Source: Alphaproteobacteria bacterium (GTDB lineage: Bacteria > Pseudomonadota > Alphaproteobacteria > UBA2966). From it: 45,250 bases of DNA. Positions 14,216 to 44,889 of this stretch are shown here, in pieces; the stretch's first letter is position 1; each line of letters begins with the position of its first letter. The translations under genes and the position numbers were made by a program. Below the pieces are notes generated by a model. It was given only the letters and a program-made list of their open reading frames with translations, searched no databases and had not been told where the DNA came from. The stretch is taken from positions 1 to 45,250 of the forward strand of contig JASLXG010000151.1 in assembly GCA_030740435.1 (NCBI GenBank), in the 5' to 3' direction.

Positions 14216-15418
14216 ATGGCCACGGGTATCAAGGACAAGGTTGCCGTTCTCGGCATGGGCTGTTCGAAGTTCGGCGAGCGCTGGGATTCCGACGCCGATG
14301 ACCTGATGATCGAAGCCTTCGAGGAATGCATCGCAGACGCCGGCATCGAGAAGAACGAGATCCAGGCGGCCTGGCTCGGCACCGCCTTCGAGGACGTAAA
14401 CATCGGCAAGTCGGGGACGCCGTTGTCGTTGGCTCTGCGTTTGCCGATGATCCCGGTGACGCGGGTGGAAAATTTTTGTGCCACCGGCACCGAGGCTTTT
14501 CGTGGCGCCGTCTATGCCGTGGCCTCCGGGGCCGTCGATATCGCCCTGGCCTTGGGCGTCGAAAAGCTCAAGGACACCGGCTACGGCGGCCTGCCCCAGC
14601 GCAGCCGCGGCGTCATGCAAAGCATGACCTGGGCCAACGCCTCGGCCCCGGGCTCGTTTGCCCAGCTCGCTTCGGCCTACACCGCCAAGCACGACATCTC
14701 GCCCGAGGACCTGAAGCGCGCCATCGCTCACGTCTCGGTCAAGAGCCACGACAACGGCACCAAGAACCCCAAGGCGCATCTGCAAAAGGCCGTCAGCATG
14801 GAGACCGTGCTGGCCGCCCCGATGATCGCCGAGCCGCTCGGGCTTTACGATTGCTGCGGCGTCAGCGACGGCTCGGCCTGCGCCATCGTGACTACGCCCG
14901 AGATTGCCAAGAGCATGGGCAAAAAGGATCTGGTCACCGTCAAGGCGCTGCAGCTCGCGGTTTCCAACGGCACCGAGGCCGGTCACAACTCCTGGGACGG
15001 CAGCTACTTCATGACCACGCGCGTCGCCAGCAAGCGGGCCTACGAAGAGGCCGGCATCAGCAATCCGCGTGAGGAAATTTCCATGACCGAGGTGCACGAC
15101 TGCTTCTCGATCACCGAGCTGGTGACCATGGAAGACCTTTTCCTTTCGGAGGAGGGCGGCGCCGTCAAGGACGTCATGGACGGGGTCTTCGATGCCGACG
15201 GCGAGGTGCCCTGCCAGATCGACGGCGGCCTCAAGTGCTTCGGCCATCCCATCGGCGCCTCGGGGCTGCGCATGCTCTATGAAAGCTACCTGCAGATGCT
15301 GGGCCGGGCCGACCAGCGCCAGCGCCAGGACCCGCGCTTTGCCCTGACCCACAATCTGGGAGGCTTTCCGCACATGAACGTCTCCAGCGTCTCGATCATC
15401 GGACGTCACGACGCCTAA
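14216..15418 (+). CDS. SCP-x-type thiolase (acetyl-CoA acetyltransferase family)
   Basis: A 400-residue thiolase of the sterol-carrier-protein-x group, which cleaves or forms 3-ketoacyl-CoA. The nucleophile Cys88 is in ENFCATGTEA. The later motifs EVHDCFSITEL and KCFGHPIGASGLR carry the active-site His residues, and THNLGG replaces the CxGGG of classical thiolases, as is normal in this group. AAGGAG lies 10 bp before the ATG, overlapping the end of the fused HMGS/DUF35 gene. Unlike its neighbour it looks fully catalytic. DUF35 partners are known to bind SCP-x thiolases and related aldolases, so the two products probably associate. The natural acyl chain is unknown. Confidence 0.9.
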   Translation: MATGIKDKVAVLGMGCSKFGERWDSDADDLMIEAFEECIADAGIEKNEIQAAWLGTAFEDVNIGKSGTPLSLALRLPMIPVTRVENFCATGTEAFRGAVYAVASGAVDIALALGVEKLKDTGYGGLPQRSRGVMQSMTWANASAPGSFAQLASAYTAKHDISPEDLKRAIAHVSVKSHDNGTKNPKAHLQKAVSMETVLAAPMIAEPLGLYDCCGVSDGSACAIVTTPEIAKSMGKKDLVTVKALQLAVSNGTEAGHNSWDGSYFMTTRVASKRAYEEAGISNPREEISMTEVHDCFSITELVTMEDLFLSEEGGAVKDVMDGVFDADGEVPCQIDGGLKCFGHPIGASGLRMLYESYLQMLGRADQRQRQDPRFALTHNLGGFPHMNVSSVSIIGRHDA

Positions 15419-15442
15419 AGCTTTGCCGGGGGAAGGACGGCC

Positions 15443-16324
15443 ATGAACCGTCCGGTCATCGTCACCTGCGCCGTGACCGGCGGCGGCGACACCGCCGACA
15501 AGTACGACGTGGTGCCGGTGACGCCGGCCGAAATCGCCGCCTCGGCGGTCGGGGCGGCCCAGGCCGGGGCGGCGGTGGTGCATATCCACGTGCGCGATCC
15601 CGAGACGGGCCGGCGCAGCATGGAACTCGCTCACTACCGCGAGACCATGGAGCGCATAAAGGACGCCGACCCGGACGTCATCATCAATCTTTCCACCGGT
15701 GCCGGCGGCCAGTTGATCTTCGACGATTCTGGCGGCACCGAACCCGATCCCGACAGTCTCTTCTGCACCGCCCAGGAGCGCGTCCGGCACATCGCCGAGC
15801 TCAAGCCCGACATCTGCAGCCTCGACATGGGCAGCCTGAACCGGCGCTTCGATCTCTTCGTCAACCTACCCCAGCACGTCGAGCTGATGGCCCGGGCCAT
15901 CATGGCAGCCGGCGTCAAGCCCGAGCTCGAAGTCTTCGATTCGGGCCACATCGCCATGACGCGAAGCTTGCTGGAACGCGGCGTCATCACCGACGAGCGC
16001 CCCTTCTTCCAGATCGTACTGGGCGCCGCCTGGGGCGCCGAGGCCACCACCGCGGCCATGCAGCACCTCTCCAGCCTGGTTCCCGCCAACGCCGTCTGGG
16101 CCGCCTTCGGCATCAGCCGCGCCCATTTCCCCATGGTGGCGCAAGCGCAGCTTCTGGGCGGCCACGTCCGCGTCGGCATCGAGGACAATCTTTATTTGGA
16201 GAAGGGCGTGGTGACGCCGAGCAACGCGGCGCTGGTGGAGAAAGCTGTCAATATCATCGAAATCCTCGGCGACCGCCCGGCCACGCCGGCCGAGGCGCGG
16301 GAGATATTGGAGTTGCCGATCTAA
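15443..16324 (+). CDS. Beta-keto acid cleavage enzyme (BKACE, DUF849)
   Basis: A 293-residue zinc-dependent TIM-barrel enzyme that condenses a beta-keto acid with acetyl-CoA to give acetoacetate and a new acyl-CoA; 3-keto-5-aminohexanoate and dehydrocarnitine cleavage are known examples. Zinc ligands are visible in VVHIHVRDP, and further family motifs in INLSTGAGG and HVRVGIEDN (conserved Glu). A GGGGGAAGGA ribosome site precedes the ATG. It follows the thiolase by 24 bp in the same direction, so acyl-CoA produced here could pass to the thiolase. The stop overlaps that of the opposing ThDP gene (CTAA). Substrate cannot be told from sequence; the BKACE family is broad. Confidence 0.9.
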   Translation: MNRPVIVTCAVTGGGDTADKYDVVPVTPAEIAASAVGAAQAGAAVVHIHVRDPETGRRSMELAHYRETMERIKDADPDVIINLSTGAGGQLIFDDSGGTEPDPDSLFCTAQERVRHIAELKPDICSLDMGSLNRRFDLFVNLPQHVELMARAIMAAGVKPELEVFDSGHIAMTRSLLERGVITDERPFFQIVLGAAWGAEATTAAMQHLSSLVPANAVWAAFGISRAHFPMVAQAQLLGGHVRVGIEDNLYLEKGVVTPSNAALVEKAVNIIEILGDRPATPAEAREILELPI

Positions 16325-37851: not shown

Positions 37852-37931
37852 GGTGTTTCCGGCGGCAGTTGAGGGGATGCGATTGGCGGCTATTTGTCCC
37901 ACAATGCGCCGGAGCAGTCGAGGAAGTAACG

Positions 37932-38339
37932 ATGAGCGGCAACAAAGGCGAACGCCGGTCGGCTTGGGCCGCGCATCCCGACTACCGCGTCGGCTTCGAG
38001 CCCACGAAAAAGCGCGTGCGCGTCCAATTCAACGGCCAGACCGTGGCCGACAGCAGCCGTGCCCGCATCATGTTGGAAACCCGGCACAAGCCGGTTTACT
38101 ACCTGCCGCGGGCCGACGTAGCTATGGAGTTCGCCCAGCGCAGCGATCACGAGAGCTTCTGCCCCTTCAAGGGCCAGGCCTCGTACTGGACGCTGGTGGT
38201 CGACGGGCGGAGTAGCGAAAACGCCATGTGGAGCTACGAGCAGCCCTTCGCCGAGGTCGCCGGCATTCGCGACTACATGGCCTTTTACGGGGATCGCGTG
38301 GATGCTCTCTGCGTCGGCGACGAGAGGGTCGGGTGGTAG
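37932..38339 (+). CDS. DUF427 family protein
   Basis: A 135-residue protein of the widespread DUF427 family: KRVRVQFNGQTVADSSRARIMLETRHKPVYYLPRADVAME, FCPFKGQASYWTLVVDG and MWSYEQPF...YMAFYGDRVD. The FCPFKG...YW region is the most conserved part. No function is established for the family. GAGGAAG lies 7 bp before the ATG at 37932. It converges with the phosphoramidate cluster (3 bp between stops) and is not part of it. Confidence 0.88.
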   Translation: MSGNKGERRSAWAAHPDYRVGFEPTKKRVRVQFNGQTVADSSRARIMLETRHKPVYYLPRADVAMEFAQRSDHESFCPFKGQASYWTLVVDGRSSENAMWSYEQPFAEVAGIRDYMAFYGDRVDALCVGDERVGW

Positions 38340-38342
38340 CGG

Positions 38343-38903
38343 CTATTCCCGTTCGGCCGGCGCGGCGTCCGCCGCGGCGATGATGGTGGCGGCGATTTCG
38401 CCGACGTCTTCGCGGTTTTCGTTGTTGTCGATCACCAGATGCGCGATTTGCGGCTCCTCGACGGCGATGTCGAGGCCGACCACGTTCTCCTCCTGGCCAC
38501 TGTCGGCGCGCAGGTAGAGGTCCTTGGGGTCGCGCCGGCGCAGCGTCTCGAGGTCGACTTTGAGAAAGACCTCGAAGTAGCCGGGCAGGTTTTTGCGGTT
38601 CCAGTAGTGGATGCGGTGGAAGAGCGACATGGTGGCGACCACCGCTGTCTCGCCGCGCTTTGTCGCTTGGCGGGCTAGTTCACCGACCCGGTAGGCGTTT
38701 TCCAGACGGCCTTCGCGGTCGTGACCGAGCGGTGCATCGGCATAGGCTTGGCGCACGGTGTCGCCGTCGATCAGCAAGACCGTCGTACCGGCGGCGCGCA
38801 ATTGCCGCGCGATCTCGTTCGCTATGGTGCTTTTGCCGGCGCCCGAAAGTCCAGTGATCCAAATCACCTGGCCCGAAGATGGCGCTGGCGGATTGCCTAC
38901 CAT
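38343..38903 (-). CDS. APS-kinase-like kinase, probable cytidine diphosphoramidate kinase (Cj1415-like)
   Basis: A 186-residue P-loop kinase. Walker A GLSGAGKST (18-26), LIDGDTVRQAYAD, GHDREGRLENAYRVGELA and DLYLRADSGQEENVVG match the CysC fold. By sequence it would be called adenylylsulfate kinase, but no sulfate-activation gene (CysN/CysD) is near. Instead it is last in the gene order of Campylobacter Cj1418-Cj1415, where Cj1415 phosphorylates the 3' hydroxyl of cytidine diphosphoramidate. That role is inferred from the neighbours. The ATG at 38903 overlaps the end of the nucleotidyltransferase by 7 bp. Confidence 0.82.
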   Translation of the reverse strand: MVGNPPAPSSGQVIWITGLSGAGKSTIANEIARQLRAAGTTVLLIDGDTVRQAYADAPLGHDREGRLENAYRVGELARQATKRGETAVVATMSLFHRIHYWNRKNLPGYFEVFLKVDLETLRRRDPKDLYLRADSGQEENVVGLDIAVEEPQIAHLVIDNNENREDVGEIAATIIAAADAAPAERE

Positions 38904-39649
38904 CGCCAGTCGTGGCTCCAGGCCTCGGCGGCGGCGATTTTTTCCTGGTAGAACCTGAGGTCGGTTTCACTGTCGACCTCGCACCAGGAGCCCTCGACCG
39001 CCACCGCGCCGATAGCCGTGCCGGCCGCCAGCAAGCGCGACAGCAGGGCCGTCATGTCGAGGCGGTCGCGCTCGGCCTCGGCCAGGCCGGCCAAGAGCTC
39101 GCTCACCCCCTGCCAGCCCGCCGGCGTGAACTTCAAGAGCCCCATGTACTGGCCCTCGATCTCGTCGGCGCGGGCGGTGCGGGCGCCGATCTCGAGAAGC
39201 CGCCCGCGGCGCTGGCGAAAAATTTCGGCATCGGCCAGGGGATCTTCGAAGCGCCCTTGCCAAAGTGCCTGCCAGTGGCGATCGTAAGCGATGGCCACAT
39301 CGTGGCGATCCGCGGCCAGGGCGCACACGGCGTCGGGGTGGTAGACGATGTCGGAATAGGAGACCAGGCAATCGTCGCGCCGCAGCACGTCGTCGGCGGC
39401 GGTCAATGTCACCACCATGTTGCTATCGGCCCAGCGTTCGTTGTCCCGCACATCGTAGCCGGGCCCCGAAAGTGCCTCGCGGTAGTAGCCGCGCACTACC
39501 ACGATTTGCTCGATGCCGGCGGCGCCCAGCGCGGTCAATTGCCAATCCAACAAGCTGCGGCCGGCCAGCTCGGTCAGGCACTTGGGCTGGTTGTCGGTCA
39601 ATGATCCCATGCGCGAGCCGCGGCCGGCGGCCAGGATGATGCCGATCAT
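38897..39649 (-). CDS. Nucleotidyltransferase, probable CTP:phosphoglutamine cytidylyltransferase (Cj1416-like)
   Basis: A 250-residue LicC/RmlA-type nucleotidyltransferase. The phosphate-binding loop LAAGRGSRMGSLT is followed by QPKCLTELAGRSLLDWQL; DCLVSYSDIVYHPDAV carries a metal Asp and GSWCEVDSETDL the second. In Campylobacter the counterpart Cj1416 joins CTP and N-phosphoglutamine to give CDP-L-glutamine. Here it stands between the glutamine amidotransferase-like and CysC-like genes, as there (10 bp and -7 bp spacing). Sugar or phosphocholine activation is the alternative, but no sugar or choline gene is present. Confidence 0.83.
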   Translation of the reverse strand: MIGIILAAGRGSRMGSLTDNQPKCLTELAGRSLLDWQLTALGAAGIEQIVVVRGYYREALSGPGYDVRDNERWADSNMVVTLTAADDVLRRDDCLVSYSDIVYHPDAVCALAADRHDVAIAYDRHWQALWQGRFEDPLADAEIFRQRRGRLLEIGARTARADEIEGQYMGLLKFTPAGWQGVSELLAGLAEAERDRLDMTALLSRLLAAGTAIGAVAVEGSWCEVDSETDLRFYQEKIAAAEAWSHDWRW

Positions 39650-39659
39650 GACGATACCC

Positions 39660-40304
39660 TCAATTGCCGCCCAGCCCGAACAGGTGGCGCACCAGGGCGC
39701 GGTCGAGATCGGCCGGCTGGGCCTCGCGCTCCGGGTGCCACATCACCGCGATCAGCGGCCGCTCGGGGCAATGACAGGCCTCGACCCAGCCGTCGGCGGT
39801 AACGGCCAGGGCCTCCAGCGGCGGCGCCAGGGTCTCGGCCCTGATGCCCACGGTGTGGAAGGAATTGACCTCGGTCATGGCCGGCAGTCCGGGGCAGGGT
39901 TGGGCCACAAGGGATACCTGGTGGCGCTGGGCCACGTGTTCCTCGCGCCGGCAGTCTCCCAGCGGCCCGCCCAGGACGCTCTGCACGAACTGCATGCCGC
40001 GGCAGACGCCAAACAACGGCAGGTGGGCCTGCCAGGCGTGCTTGAAAAGCGCCCGTTCGGTGGTGTCGCGCGCCGGCGCCGCGCCGATATCGTCGCCGCC
40101 GGTGAGGATCAGACCGTCGAGCTCCCAGTCGCGGATGAACTCGCTGGCCTGGGTGCCGGCGTTGGGCAGCGGCAGCCAGGCTGCCTCGGGCAGCACCGCG
40201 GCCATGAAGGCGAGCCAGTCGCGGGCCAGGGCGTCGCGTTCCTCGACGTAAGCGACGGCGTCAGAGGTGCGCATGCTGAGGCCGAGGCGTCGGGTTTTGA
40301 CCAT
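39660..40304 (-). CDS. Class I glutamine amidotransferase-like hydrolase, probable gamma-glutamyl-CDP-amidate hydrolase (Cj1417-like)
   Basis: A 214-residue peptidase C26/PuuD-hydrolase-type protein. Catalytic Cys101 in LFGVCRGMQ and His190/Glu192 in MWHPE complete the triad; LDGLILTGGDDIG is the family's oxyanion region. Counterparts in gamma-Glu-GABA hydrolysis release glutamate from a gamma-glutamyl amide. In Campylobacter Cj1417 cleaves CDP-L-glutamine to cytidine diphosphoramidate and glutamate, which fits the flanking genes. The ATG at 40304 begins the conserved VKTRRLGLS strand; the longer frame runs into the preceding gene. Function is inferred from fold plus order. Confidence 0.84.
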   Translation of the reverse strand: MVKTRRLGLSMRTSDAVAYVEERDALARDWLAFMAAVLPEAAWLPLPNAGTQASEFIRDWELDGLILTGGDDIGAAPARDTTERALFKHAWQAHLPLFGVCRGMQFVQSVLGGPLGDCRREEHVAQRHQVSLVAQPCPGLPAMTEVNSFHTVGIRAETLAPPLEALAVTADGWVEACHCPERPLIAVMWHPEREAQPADLDRALVRHLFGLGGN

Positions 40305-40323
40305 GCCGCTGTGCCGGGGCTTC

Positions 40324-42714
40324 TCAGGCCGCGTCCAGCCGGCGCAGCAGGCGGTCGGCACAGTTGAGTTCGACCCGGCGGGCCGAGGCCATCAGCTCGA
40401 AGGTGCGTTCGCCGCAGCCGATGGCGGCGGGCAAACCGAACTCGGCGCAGCGGATCGCCATGTGGGAGTTGGTGCCGCCGAACTTGGTGATCAGGCCCTG
40501 GATGCCCTTGGTGAATATCCAGTCGTAGCCAGGGTCGGCGTTTTCTATGCAGACGATCTTGCCATAAAGGTTGGTGCCGGCGGAGGCCAGGGAATCGAGC
40601 AGTATGGGCTGACCCTCGATGCGGCCCGAGCCGATGAAATTGGGAGCAGAGCGGTGCAGCGGCACGACGTATATGTCCTTGGCGTCACTGATCAGGTAGT
40701 TGAGCTTGAGCGCGGCGCTCAGTTCCATGGCCCGGCGGCCGCCCTCGGCCAAATCCAGAAAGTGGAGGTCGGTATCGTCGAGCACCGCATCGGTCAGGGT
40801 ATCGAGCATGGCGTTGACCTCGATGTAGGAGAGGTCGTCGCGGCCCAGGCCGAGGATCTCGCCCCAACGCCCGATGGCCGCCAGGGCGTCGGAAAGGCTG
40901 CGGGTGAAGACGAACTTGGCGTCTTCGCGGCCGGCGATGGCGCGCCGAGCGTAGCTCACCAGGCCTTCGGCGTCGATGTTTGTGAGCCCGCTTTCAGCCA
41001 GCAGCTTGTCCACGGCGGCCTGTTCGGCGGCGCTGAGCGCAAAGCTCGCGGGTGCCACTTCCTCGGGCGGCAGGCTGTCGGAAAAAAGATCGTCGCGCTC
41101 GTCGTAGCGTGGCGACAGGATGTCGTAGGTGCCGGGGCGCAGGTGGCCATAACGCAGCATGAAGGCCTGCGGGCCCAGTTGGCCGCGGCAGACGGCGGCG
41201 AAATCCGACGTAAGCTCGCCCGAGACCGTGCGCACCGAGCGGCGCAATTCCGCCAGCCGCTCCGGCGCGATGGCGCCGCGGGCCACGGCCGAGCGCAGCA
41301 GGGCCTCGGCGATGAAGGCGTGGCGGGCGATGATCGAGAACGGCAGGGTGCCCGAAGTCCGGCATTCCTGCAGATAATCGGCGGCCGCCAGCAGGGGTTC
41401 GATCTCGTGTTGGTCCTGGCTCGTTTTGCGGCGCTGGCGCTGCTTGTCCGAGAGCGTGTCAACCACCGTGCGGGCCAGTTCCAGCGTGCCATTACGGCCC
41501 AGCTCGAGGCAGGAATTGGTCAAGCTGGCCAGGTGCTCGCGGAAGCTGGCCAAGTCGTCGGCGCCGAGCAGGCCGCCGTAGCGCGCCGAAAAATTCTCAT
41601 CGAAGGTGAAGTCGAGGCAGGTCTGGGCGACCTCGAATTCGACCTTGTCGTGGAGTTCCGGGTGTCCGCTCAGGCGGTCGAGCCAGGCGTCCACCAGGGC
41701 CTCGGCGATAGTGCCGTCGAGGCCCTCGGGCAGCAGCGAATTGAAGCTGTTGCGCACGTCGATGAAGGGGTGGCCGCCGACCGTGACCATGAGTTCCTCG
41801 GAGGGCAGCCGGCGGTAGCCCATGCGTTCGCGGGCCAGCCGCCAGACGTCGCGGGTGATCAATTCGCGATAGAGCGAGGCGGCCAGCGGCCTCGGCGTGG
41901 TGCCGATGATCTCGGCCGGGTTCCAGTCCGGCATGACGCCGAGCACGGTGCGCGAGCCGGCCAGGCCGGCCCGGGGCCGGGAGCGGTTCTCGACGAATCG
42001 CTCGATGTATTCCAGGCGCTTCGAGACCCGGTTCTGGGTGCCCGCCAGCCAGCGCCGCTGCAGGCTGATGCGCCGCACCTGGAAGAGCACGACGCGGCCA
42101 TCGTGGGTTATGCCGAACTCGATATCCAAGGGTACCGGGCCGCAAATTTCCTCCAGGTCGCGGGCCAGGACAAGCATGCTGAGGACACGCTCGGATTGCA
42201 GGTACTTGTCGTCGCAGCCGCGAAACACCAGCACCGCCTTGTTGACGTGGGTGCCGCCGGTGATCGAGTCGGTCTTGCCCGATTCGTCGTCGTATTCGAT
42301 GACGTAGAAGGGCGAGCCGCGCTGCAAATCGTGGGTCATGATGACGCCACTTAGCGCCACGTCGTCAAGCATGGGCTGGACCAGGACCTGATCGTTGGGA
42401 TTGCCGGAATAGGAGGCAACGACGTCGGCGATGGCGCTTTGCAGGGCCTGGCGGTTGCCGCCATCGACGCCCAGCCGGCTCATGAAAGCACCGGCCATTG
42501 AACCTTCCGCGCTGTCCTCGCCAGTGGCGCTGGAGCGCACCGCCAAGATCTGCTCGCCGTAGTCCGCGGCCAGGCGCTCGAGCACGGCGTCGGGGTCGGC
42601 CAGCCAATCGGAGACCGGGAAATAGGTCAGATCGAGGACCTCGGCCCGTCGCACCAGCGGCGCCAGCCGCTCCAGCGTCTCGGCCTTGGTGCCGAAGGAA
42701 AAATCAGTCGCCAT
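40324..42714 (-). CDS. PEP-synthase-like kinase, probable L-glutamine kinase (Cj1418-like)
   Basis: A 796-residue protein. An N-terminal ATP-grasp (PPDK_N-like) domain shows AVRSSATGEDS (58-68) and VLVQPML; a long helical middle follows (about 270-680). The C-terminal swivelling phosphohistidine domain has TKFGGTNSHMAIRCAEFGLPA with the transfer His751. True PEP synthase also needs a PEP/pyruvate-binding TIM barrel, which is missing, so PEP is not the product. In Campylobacter Cj1418 the same layout phosphorylates the amide nitrogen of glutamine. The start is ATG at 42714, sharing one base with the methyltransferase stop (TGATG). The ATP-grasp and His domains are intact. Confidence 0.85.
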   Translation of the reverse strand: MATDFSFGTKAETLERLAPLVRRAEVLDLTYFPVSDWLADPDAVLERLAADYGEQILAVRSSATGEDSAEGSMAGAFMSRLGVDGGNRQALQSAIADVVASYSGNPNDQVLVQPMLDDVALSGVIMTHDLQRGSPFYVIEYDDESGKTDSITGGTHVNKAVLVFRGCDDKYLQSERVLSMLVLARDLEEICGPVPLDIEFGITHDGRVVLFQVRRISLQRRWLAGTQNRVSKRLEYIERFVENRSRPRAGLAGSRTVLGVMPDWNPAEIIGTTPRPLAASLYRELITRDVWRLARERMGYRRLPSEELMVTVGGHPFIDVRNSFNSLLPEGLDGTIAEALVDAWLDRLSGHPELHDKVEFEVAQTCLDFTFDENFSARYGGLLGADDLASFREHLASLTNSCLELGRNGTLELARTVVDTLSDKQRQRRKTSQDQHEIEPLLAAADYLQECRTSGTLPFSIIARHAFIAEALLRSAVARGAIAPERLAELRRSVRTVSGELTSDFAAVCRGQLGPQAFMLRYGHLRPGTYDILSPRYDERDDLFSDSLPPEEVAPASFALSAAEQAAVDKLLAESGLTNIDAEGLVSYARRAIAGREDAKFVFTRSLSDALAAIGRWGEILGLGRDDLSYIEVNAMLDTLTDAVLDDTDLHFLDLAEGGRRAMELSAALKLNYLISDAKDIYVVPLHRSAPNFIGSGRIEGQPILLDSLASAGTNLYGKIVCIENADPGYDWIFTKGIQGLITKFGGTNSHMAIRCAEFGLPAAIGCGERTFELMASARRVELNCADRLLRRLDAA

Positions 42715-43466
42715 CAATTGCGCAACCCGGCCAGCCAGACCTGGGTGGTATAGGGAATGTCGATGACCGCGAGGCCGCTCTCTCGCAGTACCGCCTCGAT
42801 ATCGCCAATGACGGCCTCGAACTGCTGGCCCGCCTGGCGGTGCAGCGTGCCGTGGCTGCGCCAGGCCTCGAGGCAGTCCTGCAAGGATTGTTGGTGTGTG
42901 ATGCCGCCCGAGATGCGGCTCACCTCGCCAAACAGGCCGCTGGCTTCGATCGCCACCGTCTGGTCCTCGCGCCGTCTGCCGTAGGCGTAGTCCGGTATGC
43001 GGGCGGCAATGGCGCTTTCGATGGCGGCCTGCAGTGGGTCATCGAGGTCGCGGTGGTTCCACATGCAGGCGAACCAGCCCTGCGGCTTGAGGATGCGGGA
43101 CGATTCGCGGAGCGCCGCCGCTTGGTCGACGACGTTGAAAGACGAGCCGAAGGTGACCAGATCGAAAGCGTCGTCGGGTTGTTGGGTGTGCTCGCCGGTG
43201 CCTTCGACCCAGCTCACCCGGGGCCAGGCGGCGGTGCGCTTCTGGCCGCGGGCACGCATCTCGTCGTTGGGCTCGACCGGGCTTACCTCGAGGCCGCGTT
43301 GCAGCAGTTTCAGCGTCAGGTGCGCCACCCCGGCACCGACGTCGCAGACCCGCGCCCCGGCTTCCAGCCCGGTGCTTGCCAGCAGCTCGTCGATGGCGGC
43401 ATCGGAATAGTCCGGCCGTTGCAGGTAGGCCTCGGCAAGGTCGGAATAGTCCCATTCCGTTTTCAT
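42714..43466 (-). CDS. SAM-dependent methyltransferase in phosphoramidate cluster (Cj1419/Cj1420-like position)
   Basis: A 250-residue class I methyltransferase. Motif I VCDVGAGVAHLTLKLL (SAM glycine loop), acidic VEPNDEM after strand 2, FDLVTFGSSFNVVD for motif IV and LKPQGWFACMWNHRD for motif VI. The N-terminal WDYSDLAEAYLQRPDYSDAAI is typical of small-molecule methyltransferases. Campylobacter has two methyltransferases at this place, assigned to O-methylation of the phosphoramidate; only one is present here. GGAG lies 9 bp before the ATG. The downstream kinase starts within its stop codon. Confidence 0.85.
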   Translation of the reverse strand: MKTEWDYSDLAEAYLQRPDYSDAAIDELLASTGLEAGARVCDVGAGVAHLTLKLLQRGLEVSPVEPNDEMRARGQKRTAAWPRVSWVEGTGEHTQQPDDAFDLVTFGSSFNVVDQAAALRESSRILKPQGWFACMWNHRDLDDPLQAAIESAIAARIPDYAYGRRREDQTVAIEASGLFGEVSRISGGITHQQSLQDCLEAWRSHGTLHRQAGQQFEAVIGDIEAVLRESGLAVIDIPYTTQVWLAGLRN

Positions 43467-43536: not shown

Positions 43537-44826
43537 TCAAAGCAACTCGATCAGTGCTTCGCGGCGCCGCCAGCCGCGCCACCAACGGCCCACCACATGG
43601 CGGCGCAGGGCCAGGTATTCGGTCCCCATGGCGCCCACGGTGCGGCCATCCCAGGGCCGCCGCCGGCGCCACAGCCGGGTCTCGAAGCGAAAGGGCCAGA
43701 GCCACAGCATAAAGGCCGCCAGCCTGAGCGGCGTTAGCAGGAAAGGCCAGCCGATATCATAGCCCCAGGCGGCGTACTTGTCGGCCAACAGGAACTTCAA
43801 ACGCAGCCGGTCGAAGGGCGTCACGATGTCGCCGTGGCGCTTGGCGATGGTTTGGCTCTGAAAGCCCTGGACCACGGTATCGCCGCTACGCCAGGTCCAG
43901 AGCTTGCCGTCGAAGGTGCTGTGCATGAGATTTTCGTGCCACTCGATGCCGATCCAGGCAGCGATTTTTGCCAAGGTCTCGCGGGGCTTCATATGCAGGT
44001 CCTCGAGCCGTACGGCACGGCTCTCGTTGCCCTCGAAGGCGGTCTCGCCGGGGGGGCTGCGCTGCGCCATGGGCGTGGCGTAGTCGAGGCTTTGCAAAAT
44101 CAGGCGCCTGGGCAGGTCGAGGTGCAGCCATTGTTCCGAACGCCCGCTTCCCTGGTAGTGCGAGGCCAGGGTCTGGACCGGTTCGCGCACGGTGTGGAGG
44201 AACTTGACGCGGCCCGGGAAATCTTGGGCCAGGGGGCGCAGTTTGTCCGGTTCGGGAACATGTCCCTGGAAGACCAGCAAGGGCCGGCCAGCCCCGAGCT
44301 TACGTCCCAGAACCTCGGCGTAGGCGGCGTGTACGGCCTTAAAGAAGTAGCGCCCCGGTAGCGGCTGGCTTTGGAAGTCCTCGATCACCAGGGCGAGCTT
44401 GCGCAACAGGGCGTCGCTGAAGGCGCCCTTGTCCAGGCCCAGTCGCTGGTCGCCCTCGGTGCCCATGCGGTCGAGGCCGTAGCTGGTTCCCAGCGAGGTA
44501 TCGCCAACCTCGGCGCCGGGATCGAAGAAGACCTCGTAGGCGTCGAGAAAATAGCCCAGCGCGGTTATCGCCGGCAGCTCGCGGATGCTTTCCCAGAAGG
44601 CGTAGAAGCCGACCAGATAGATCGCCGGCAGCGTCACCACCTGGGGATGGTTGTCCAACAGGCTGTGCAAAAAGACAGAGCCGGAACGGCCATAGTAATG
44701 GATCGAGATGACGTGCTCGAACTGGGTGGCATCGATGGCCGGGGTATCGGGTGGCGCCACGGTGTGATCTGCGGCTCGCTCTGTCAGGGTGCTCCAGAGC
44801 TTAATCCGGAATGTTCGCCGGGTCAC
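43537..44826 (-). CDS. Sulfotransferase-fold protein, candidate phosphoramidoyl transferase
   Basis: A roughly 429-residue protein. HYYGRSGSVFLHSLLDNHP is a 5'-phosphosulfate loop of PAPS sulfotransferases and HTVREPVQTLASHY the 3'-phosphate-binding motif (R-x-P-x5-S). The region after residue 330 is basic and hydrophobic and could contact a membrane or glycan acceptor. It is first in the minus-strand run, 70 bp ahead of the methyltransferase. The neighbouring CysC-like kinase makes a 3'-phosphonucleotide, so this fold may transfer phosphoramidate instead of sulfate; that is inference. Start GTG 44826 has GAGG upstream; GTG 44883 is possible but would face the divergent gene more closely. Confidence 0.75.
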   Translation of the reverse strand: MTRRTFRIKLWSTLTERAADHTVAPPDTPAIDATQFEHVISIHYYGRSGSVFLHSLLDNHPQVVTLPAIYLVGFYAFWESIRELPAITALGYFLDAYEVFFDPGAEVGDTSLGTSYGLDRMGTEGDQRLGLDKGAFSDALLRKLALVIEDFQSQPLPGRYFFKAVHAAYAEVLGRKLGAGRPLLVFQGHVPEPDKLRPLAQDFPGRVKFLHTVREPVQTLASHYQGSGRSEQWLHLDLPRRLILQSLDYATPMAQRSPPGETAFEGNESRAVRLEDLHMKPRETLAKIAAWIGIEWHENLMHSTFDGKLWTWRSGDTVVQGFQSQTIAKRHGDIVTPFDRLRLKFLLADKYAAWGYDIGWPFLLTPLRLAAFMLWLWPFRFETRLWRRRRPWDGRTVGAMGTEYLALRRHVVGRWWRGWRRREALIELL

Positions 44827-44889
44827 GGCCTGCCTCACGTCCAGCCGGCGGTCCGGGGGCGGCCAAAAGCGTGCTACGATCACCCTCTG

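Follow-up and report, generated by a model that had tools for sequence, protein, structure and literature searches.

A run of six minus-strand genes in an alphaproteobacterial genome probably constitutes an operon for phosphoramidate biosynthesis and transfer, homologous to cj1415–cj1418 of Campylobacter jejuni and in the same order; we put the probability of this reading at roughly 0.8. The operon lies within the window, that is, the whole 45,250-nucleotide stretch of DNA analysed here. In C. jejuni, Cj1415–Cj1418 make CDP-phosphoramidate 3'-phosphate (PMC11800397), which is an analogue of PAPS. The link to these four enzymes rests on gene order, on NCBIfam models and on biochemistry from the literature, without a direct comparison with Campylobacter sequences. 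The four core steps are inferred from homology to the C. jejuni enzymes, and the roles of the methyltransferase and the transferase are likewise inferences.

In the proposed pathway, a glutamine kinase would supply phosphoglutamine to a nucleotidyltransferase, which would join it to CMP from CTP to give CDP-glutamine; a hydrolase would remove glutamate to yield cytidine diphosphoramidate, and a CysC-like kinase would phosphorylate its ribose 3'-OH. The methyltransferase would then O-methylate the phosphoramidate, and a sulfotransferase-fold protein would move the (methyl)phosphoramidate group from the PAPS-like 3'-phosphonucleotide onto a hydroxyl acceptor of unknown identity, leaving 3'-phospho-CMP, which a CysQ-type phosphatase could recycle. 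If the same pathway does operate in many phyla, decoration with phosphoramidate would be widespread and has so far been overlooked, and there would be candidates for two open steps in Campylobacter, namely the enzyme that adds the O-methyl group and the departure of the group from the 3'-phosphonucleotide.

Operon layout and gene order

Five adjacent minus-strand genes were found where a preliminary description of this locus had placed them, with Pfam domains that agree: a SAM-dependent methyltransferase (MT, 42714–43466, Methyltransf_11), a glutamine-kinase-like protein (KIN, 40324–42717, PPDK_N and PEP-utilizers), a C26/class-I glutamine-amidotransferase-like hydrolase (GAT, 39660–40304, Peptidase_C26), a LicC-like nucleotidyltransferase (NT, 38897–39649, NTP_transf_3) and a CysC-like kinase (CysC, 38343–38903, APS_kinase). 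Their tight packing was also borne out. MT and KIN overlap, KIN having a likely ATG start at 42714; 19 bp separate KIN from GAT and 10 bp GAT from NT, and NT and CysC overlap by 7 bp. The first of these gaps depends on the GAT start, for which we chose the ATG at 40304 within the mechanical open reading frame 39660–40361, a choice that fits a 214-residue orthologue of the same genus. All five genes stand, but the description overlooked a sixth on the same strand, 70 bp upstream of MT, which encodes a sulfotransferase-fold protein (ST, 43537–44883, Sulfotransfer_3). Its start is uncertain (GTG at 44883, 44838, 44826 or 44760), and its conserved domain occupies 43537–44760.

No capsule genes were found near the operon, and the flanking genes in the window belong to ordinary metabolism. 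A DUF427 gene (37869–38339, plus strand) is convergent with the operon on its downstream side and was seen again only in the sister species. In that sister species of the genus (L172, genome G001), the same genes adjoin one another, with 80–92% identity. This second cluster, together with the presence of all five families in 55 of the best 80 of at least 567 loci, which were fetched by the kinase alone, indicates that the gene set is more than a chance assembly.

The order of the window genes matches cj1422/1421-1420-...-1416-1415, in which the MeOPN transferase genes cj1421/cj1422 lie upstream of cj1420 (PMC3907429), and ST at the head of the operon fits their position. No function has been assigned to Cj1419 or Cj1420 (PMC11800397). 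The two systems agree in the kinds and order of these four enzymes; in both, a methyltransferase lies upstream and a candidate transferase gene comes first. They differ in that the window operon lies outside a capsule locus, its GAT misses the equivalog cut-off, and its transferase candidate belongs to a sulfotransferase-fold family, homology to Cj1421/1422 being undetermined.

Core enzymes

Judged by its profile match, KIN is a full-length member of the PRK05849 (NF004508) family, scoring 902 bits against a cut-off of 501, with residues 4–794 aligned to model positions 7–788; NCBIfam still names this family a hypothetical protein. the best score from a PEP synthase model is 48 bits, in a match confined to the last 90 residues, and the two types of enzyme overlap only in the ATP-binding and mobile phosphohistidine domains. 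On these scores we reject a PEP synthase reading, and the preliminary description was right to set the kinase apart from that family. KIN consists of an ATP-binding domain, a helical middle and a C-terminal phosphohistidine domain, and Pfam gives no TIM barrel domain. The catalytic-type His752 (codon 40462–40464, minus strand; numbering from the TTG start), in the motif GGTNSHMAIR, is conserved without exception in two alignments of diverse members (11 and 16 proteins), and a large set of residues is invariant across the aligned members.

The predicted structure of KIN (pLDDT 84.7, pTM 0.82) was searched against known folds, and rifampin phosphotransferase ranked first, with low TM-scores (0.27–0.35). 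This closest solved architecture resembles KIN in its ATP-binding domain, substrate domain, swivelling His domain and lack of a TIM barrel, but shares only 15% identity and has another middle domain and another substrate. By sequence, only short stretches were matched in the PDB, in PEP synthases and rifampin phosphotransferase, and these searches with KIN found no solved glutamine kinase. We propose that KIN is glutamine-kinase-like; glutamine phosphorylation is inferred without an enzyme assay, and membership of Cj1418 in NF004508 is unverified.

The nearest solved structure to NT is the CTP:phosphocholine cytidylyltransferase LicC (1jyk). The family fits the proposed function as a CTP:phosphoglutamine cytidylyltransferase, although the substrate is inferred. 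For GAT, a putative gamma-glutamyl-CDP-amidate hydrolase, the best NCBIfam model is the one for that activity, NF045546, at 83.8 bits; it is well ahead of PuuD, and we therefore rejected a PuuD reading. The class-I/C26 catalytic Cys-His-Glu is present (residues 120, 209 and 211, GTG numbering). The family assignment made in the preliminary description holds, but the score falls far short of the 250-bit equivalog cut-off for the specific hydrolase.

CysC passes the cut-off of NF004041 (175.5 versus 127 bits) and misses that of the apsK equivalog TIGR00455 (122 versus 138.7 bits). A branch supported at 100/100 divides a 106-protein tree into 75 CysCs linked to clusters, that of the window among them, and 31 canonical APS kinases, an outcome in line with the original interpretation of the gene. 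The canonical sample is narrow, with 30 proteins from the class of the window genome and one found near a cluster. CysC lacks the canonical FTG and SP(Y/F) motifs and carries the cluster-type VVG, SLF, WNR and Y107 instead. No sulfate adenylyltransferase was found within the cluster; elsewhere the window genome has a complete CysN/C, a fusion that contains a separate, canonical APS kinase (G000:C186, 256 bits). Because CysC falls outside the 31 canonical enzymes and misses the apsK cut-off, we reject an APS kinase reading: by its sequence, and within the limits of that narrow sample, it is not an APS kinase. Activity as a cytidine diphosphoramidate 3'-kinase is proposed from homology.

The window genome holds a second cluster-type CysC-like gene (G000:C29, L176:9607–11578, plus strand), followed by a gene for a 191-residue protein and a formyltransferase-like reading frame. 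This trio recurs near the kinase clusters L032, L035, L037, L072, L079, L086 and L097, and the 191-residue type has no Pfam match.

Distribution and co-occurrence

A scan of GTDB returned at least 589 pattern matches, at least 567 of them encoding a kinase relative. Family membership was checked only in 80 loci, the best 80 of at least 567, which were picked by similarity to the kinase of one complete cluster and are hence biased. The kinase relatives come from Pseudomonadota, Acidobacteriota, Verrucomicrobiota, Bacteroidota, Planctomycetota, Bacillota, Cyanobacteria-related and other lineages. Plasmid copies were seen in Azospirillum, Vibrio, Cupriavidus, Allorhizobium and others. Among the best 80 of at least 567 loci, GAT is present in 77, NT in 75, CysC in 70, MT in 59 and ST in 22; KIN, GAT, NT and CysC occur together in 66, and with MT in 55, in many different orders. 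Eight loci encode a CysC–KIN fusion with CysC at the N-terminal end (963–1060 residues; six acidobacterial and two gammaproteobacterial MAGs), and L029 encodes a KIN–GAT fusion. The latter (L029:652–3687, 1011 residues) lies on a contig from human faeces that is catalogued as bacteriophage and looks bacterial by eye, with thioredoxin-reductase-like, murC-like and prs-like neighbours.

The set had been put forward as one found outside Campylobacter; it is indeed present here, but it is no lone outlier, being scattered over many phyla. Phosphoramidate in LPS was already known chemically outside Campylobacter, from Xanthomonas campestris and a Shewanella (PMC3907429). A 2022 review treated the P-N-forming glutamine kinase as specific to C. 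jejuni (PMC9561416), and according to a 2025 paper Borg elements have genes of the MeOPN type (PMC12660748), so that their presence outside Campylobacter has been remarked on at least in passing. The predicted scattering of the genes by automatic annotation is met in Azospirillum lipoferum, where they are named adenylyl-sulfate kinase, methyltransferase, PEP-utilizing enzyme, gamma-glutamyl-gamma-aminobutyrate hydrolase and phosphocholine cytidylyltransferase. On plasmid AZO_p6 of A. lipoferum 4B (L023), CysC, MT, KIN, GAT and NT form one run with sulfotransferase-domain genes close by, as in the window, but there the CysC sequence belongs to a larger open reading frame and comes before MT, and KIN is only about 40% identical.

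A less biased sample comprised 398 Pseudomonadota genomes, 15 of which, spread over 12 genera, encode KIN above its cut-off. Cluster-type CysC (at least 140 bits; canonical enzymes score at most 135) was present in 11 of these 15 versus 1 of the 383 genomes without KIN (Fisher, 2e-17). The corresponding counts were 11/15 versus 0/383 for the MT subfamily (>220 bits; 1.6e-18) and 8/15 versus 2/383 for the ST subfamily (234 bits or more, against 84 for the next match; 2e-11). The P values assume independent genomes, which phylogenetically they are not, and the profiles used for CysC, MT and ST derive from kinase-linked copies. CysC and MT lie side by side on a contig other than that of KIN in G129 and G188, and about 20 kb from KIN in G254; the unlinked pairs in G129 and G188 leave the association unexplained by linkage alone. 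Two KIN-positive genomes among the 398 (G441 and G418) yielded no cluster-type CysC, MT or ST, which counts against the operon reading. Whole-genome co-occurrence and gene fusions both indicate that the five genes belong together and, with the 902-bit PRK05849 match and the CysC tree, support the initial reading of the locus as a P-N biosynthesis set.

MT (METHYLTRANSFERASE) shares 54–62% identity with 12 of 13 cluster MTs from several phyla and is better conserved across phyla than KIN (33–39% to its own panel). Since acceptors probably differ, such strong conservation is most simply read as a shared substrate, phosphoramidate itself, and we infer that MT O-methylates it. In C. jejuni, phosphoramidate is found with and without the methyl group (PMC9561416).

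Clusters without CysC occur on plasmids of Pseudohalocynthiibacter (L025:8155–11364) and Vibrio alfacsensis (L026:8341–11349), where KIN has an extra N-terminal domain weakly similar to cytidylyltransferase; the V. alfacsensis cluster adjoins cysN/cysD on the opposite strand (L026:5449–7854). A rule drawn from L025, L026 and L028, by which clusters lacking CysC would carry CDP-alcohol or glycerophosphotransferases, was rejected as a general one because most Glyphos_transf loci carry CysC. In Pseudomonas (L036, L049 and L159), the cluster lies beside flagellar genes (flgI, flgK and flgL by eye), an adjacency that suggests modification of a flagellin glycan.

The transferase candidate and rival readings

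The AlphaFold model of ST (pTM 0.79) has sulfotransferases as its best PDB matches, several with bound PAP, at TM-scores of about 0.5 by target length, a moderate similarity. Both the PAPS-dependent sulfotransferase fold and the Arg and Ser that bind the 3'-phosphate are present, and the subfamily retains the nucleotide loop YYGRSGSVFLHSLLDNHP and the 3'-phosphate motif REPVQTLAS. ST is the most frequent family among the other genes near KIN (35 loci). Kinase-linked STs mostly score 180–440 bits against their own profile, versus at most 31 bits for other sulfotransferases in the same genomes; the exceptions above 31 bits are unlinked copies of the subfamily. Three such copies (C85, C91 and C183) are in the window genome, which has four transferase genes of this subfamily. 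In the sister genome, the kinase-linked orthologue is split into two reading frames (L172:12031–13350), a point against the operon reading, though a second copy nearby is intact (14381–15742).

Enzymes of the CysQ family strip 3'-phosphates off nucleotides. CysQ-type genes lie within eight clusters; in the three that we checked, CysQ was the best model each time and was above its cut-off once. From the fold and 3'-phosphate motif, the PAPS-like product of Cj1415–Cj1418 and the CysQ-type genes in clusters, we infer that the STs transfer phosphoramidate. As in the PAPS system, a CysC-family kinase would produce a nucleotide donor bearing a 3'-phosphate, the transferase candidate has a sulfotransferase fold, and CysQ is present in some clusters. 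The proposed nucleotide here differs in being a cytidine one with phosphoramidate in place of sulfate, and the window CysC lacks the APS-kinase motifs. We lean, at slightly better than even odds, towards a distinct sulfotransferase-fold subfamily of phosphoramidate transferases that would use 3'-phospho-CDP-(methyl)phosphoramidate as PAPS is used, inside a complete P-N cycle (glutamine kinase, cytidylyltransferase, glutaminase, 3'-kinase, methyltransferase, transferase and CysQ-type recycling) across many phyla.

It is possible, though we doubt it, that the core four enzymes make 3'-phospho-CDP-phosphoramidate while ST is no more than a neighbouring PAPS sulfotransferase of the ordinary kind, transfer being left to an unlinked enzyme. 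Sulfation is likely in the window organism, whose genome encodes PAPS synthesis (canonical CysN/C at C186) and yields 13 matches to Sulfotransfer_3; 7 of the 15 kinase-positive genomes lack an ST of this type, and Glyphos_transf or CDP-alcohol transferase genes are found in other clusters. Yet the kinase-linked STs stand sharply apart as a subfamily (mostly 180–440 versus at most 31 bits), and over the 398 genomes scores fall from 234 to 84 bits, with KIN in 8 of the 10 genomes above that gap. A different departure, with the same logic but another substrate, would have KIN phosphorylate some other amide and the nucleotide carry some other P-N group. This is improbable, even if COG1213 cytidylyltransferases take varied phospho-substrates (PMC12275187) and distant KIN members are only 33–46% identical to that of the window: the invariant residue set in KIN is large, and GAT, a glutaminase-type hydrolase that fits a gamma-glutamyl amide, is present in 77 of the best 80 of at least 567 loci.

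Hardly tenable is a chance patch of sulfate assimilation and central metabolism, made up of a PEP synthase relative, a PuuD-like hydrolase, a sugar nucleotidyltransferase and an APS kinase. That is how automatic annotation names the genes in A. lipoferum and others, but many lineages conserve the set, with its genes rearranged and in places fused. CysC, moreover, was checked both for its place outside the APS kinases and for its co-occurrence with KIN, and both results run against a chance patch; the cluster has no sulfate adenylyltransferase, a complete CysN/C lying elsewhere.

Counting against the operon reading, ST-type genes also occur in two genomes without the kinase. In one of them (G100, L200:6518–9693), a CysC-like gene directly precedes an ST-type gene with an N-terminal extension, a pair that possibly uses a different nucleotide donor or is a remnant.
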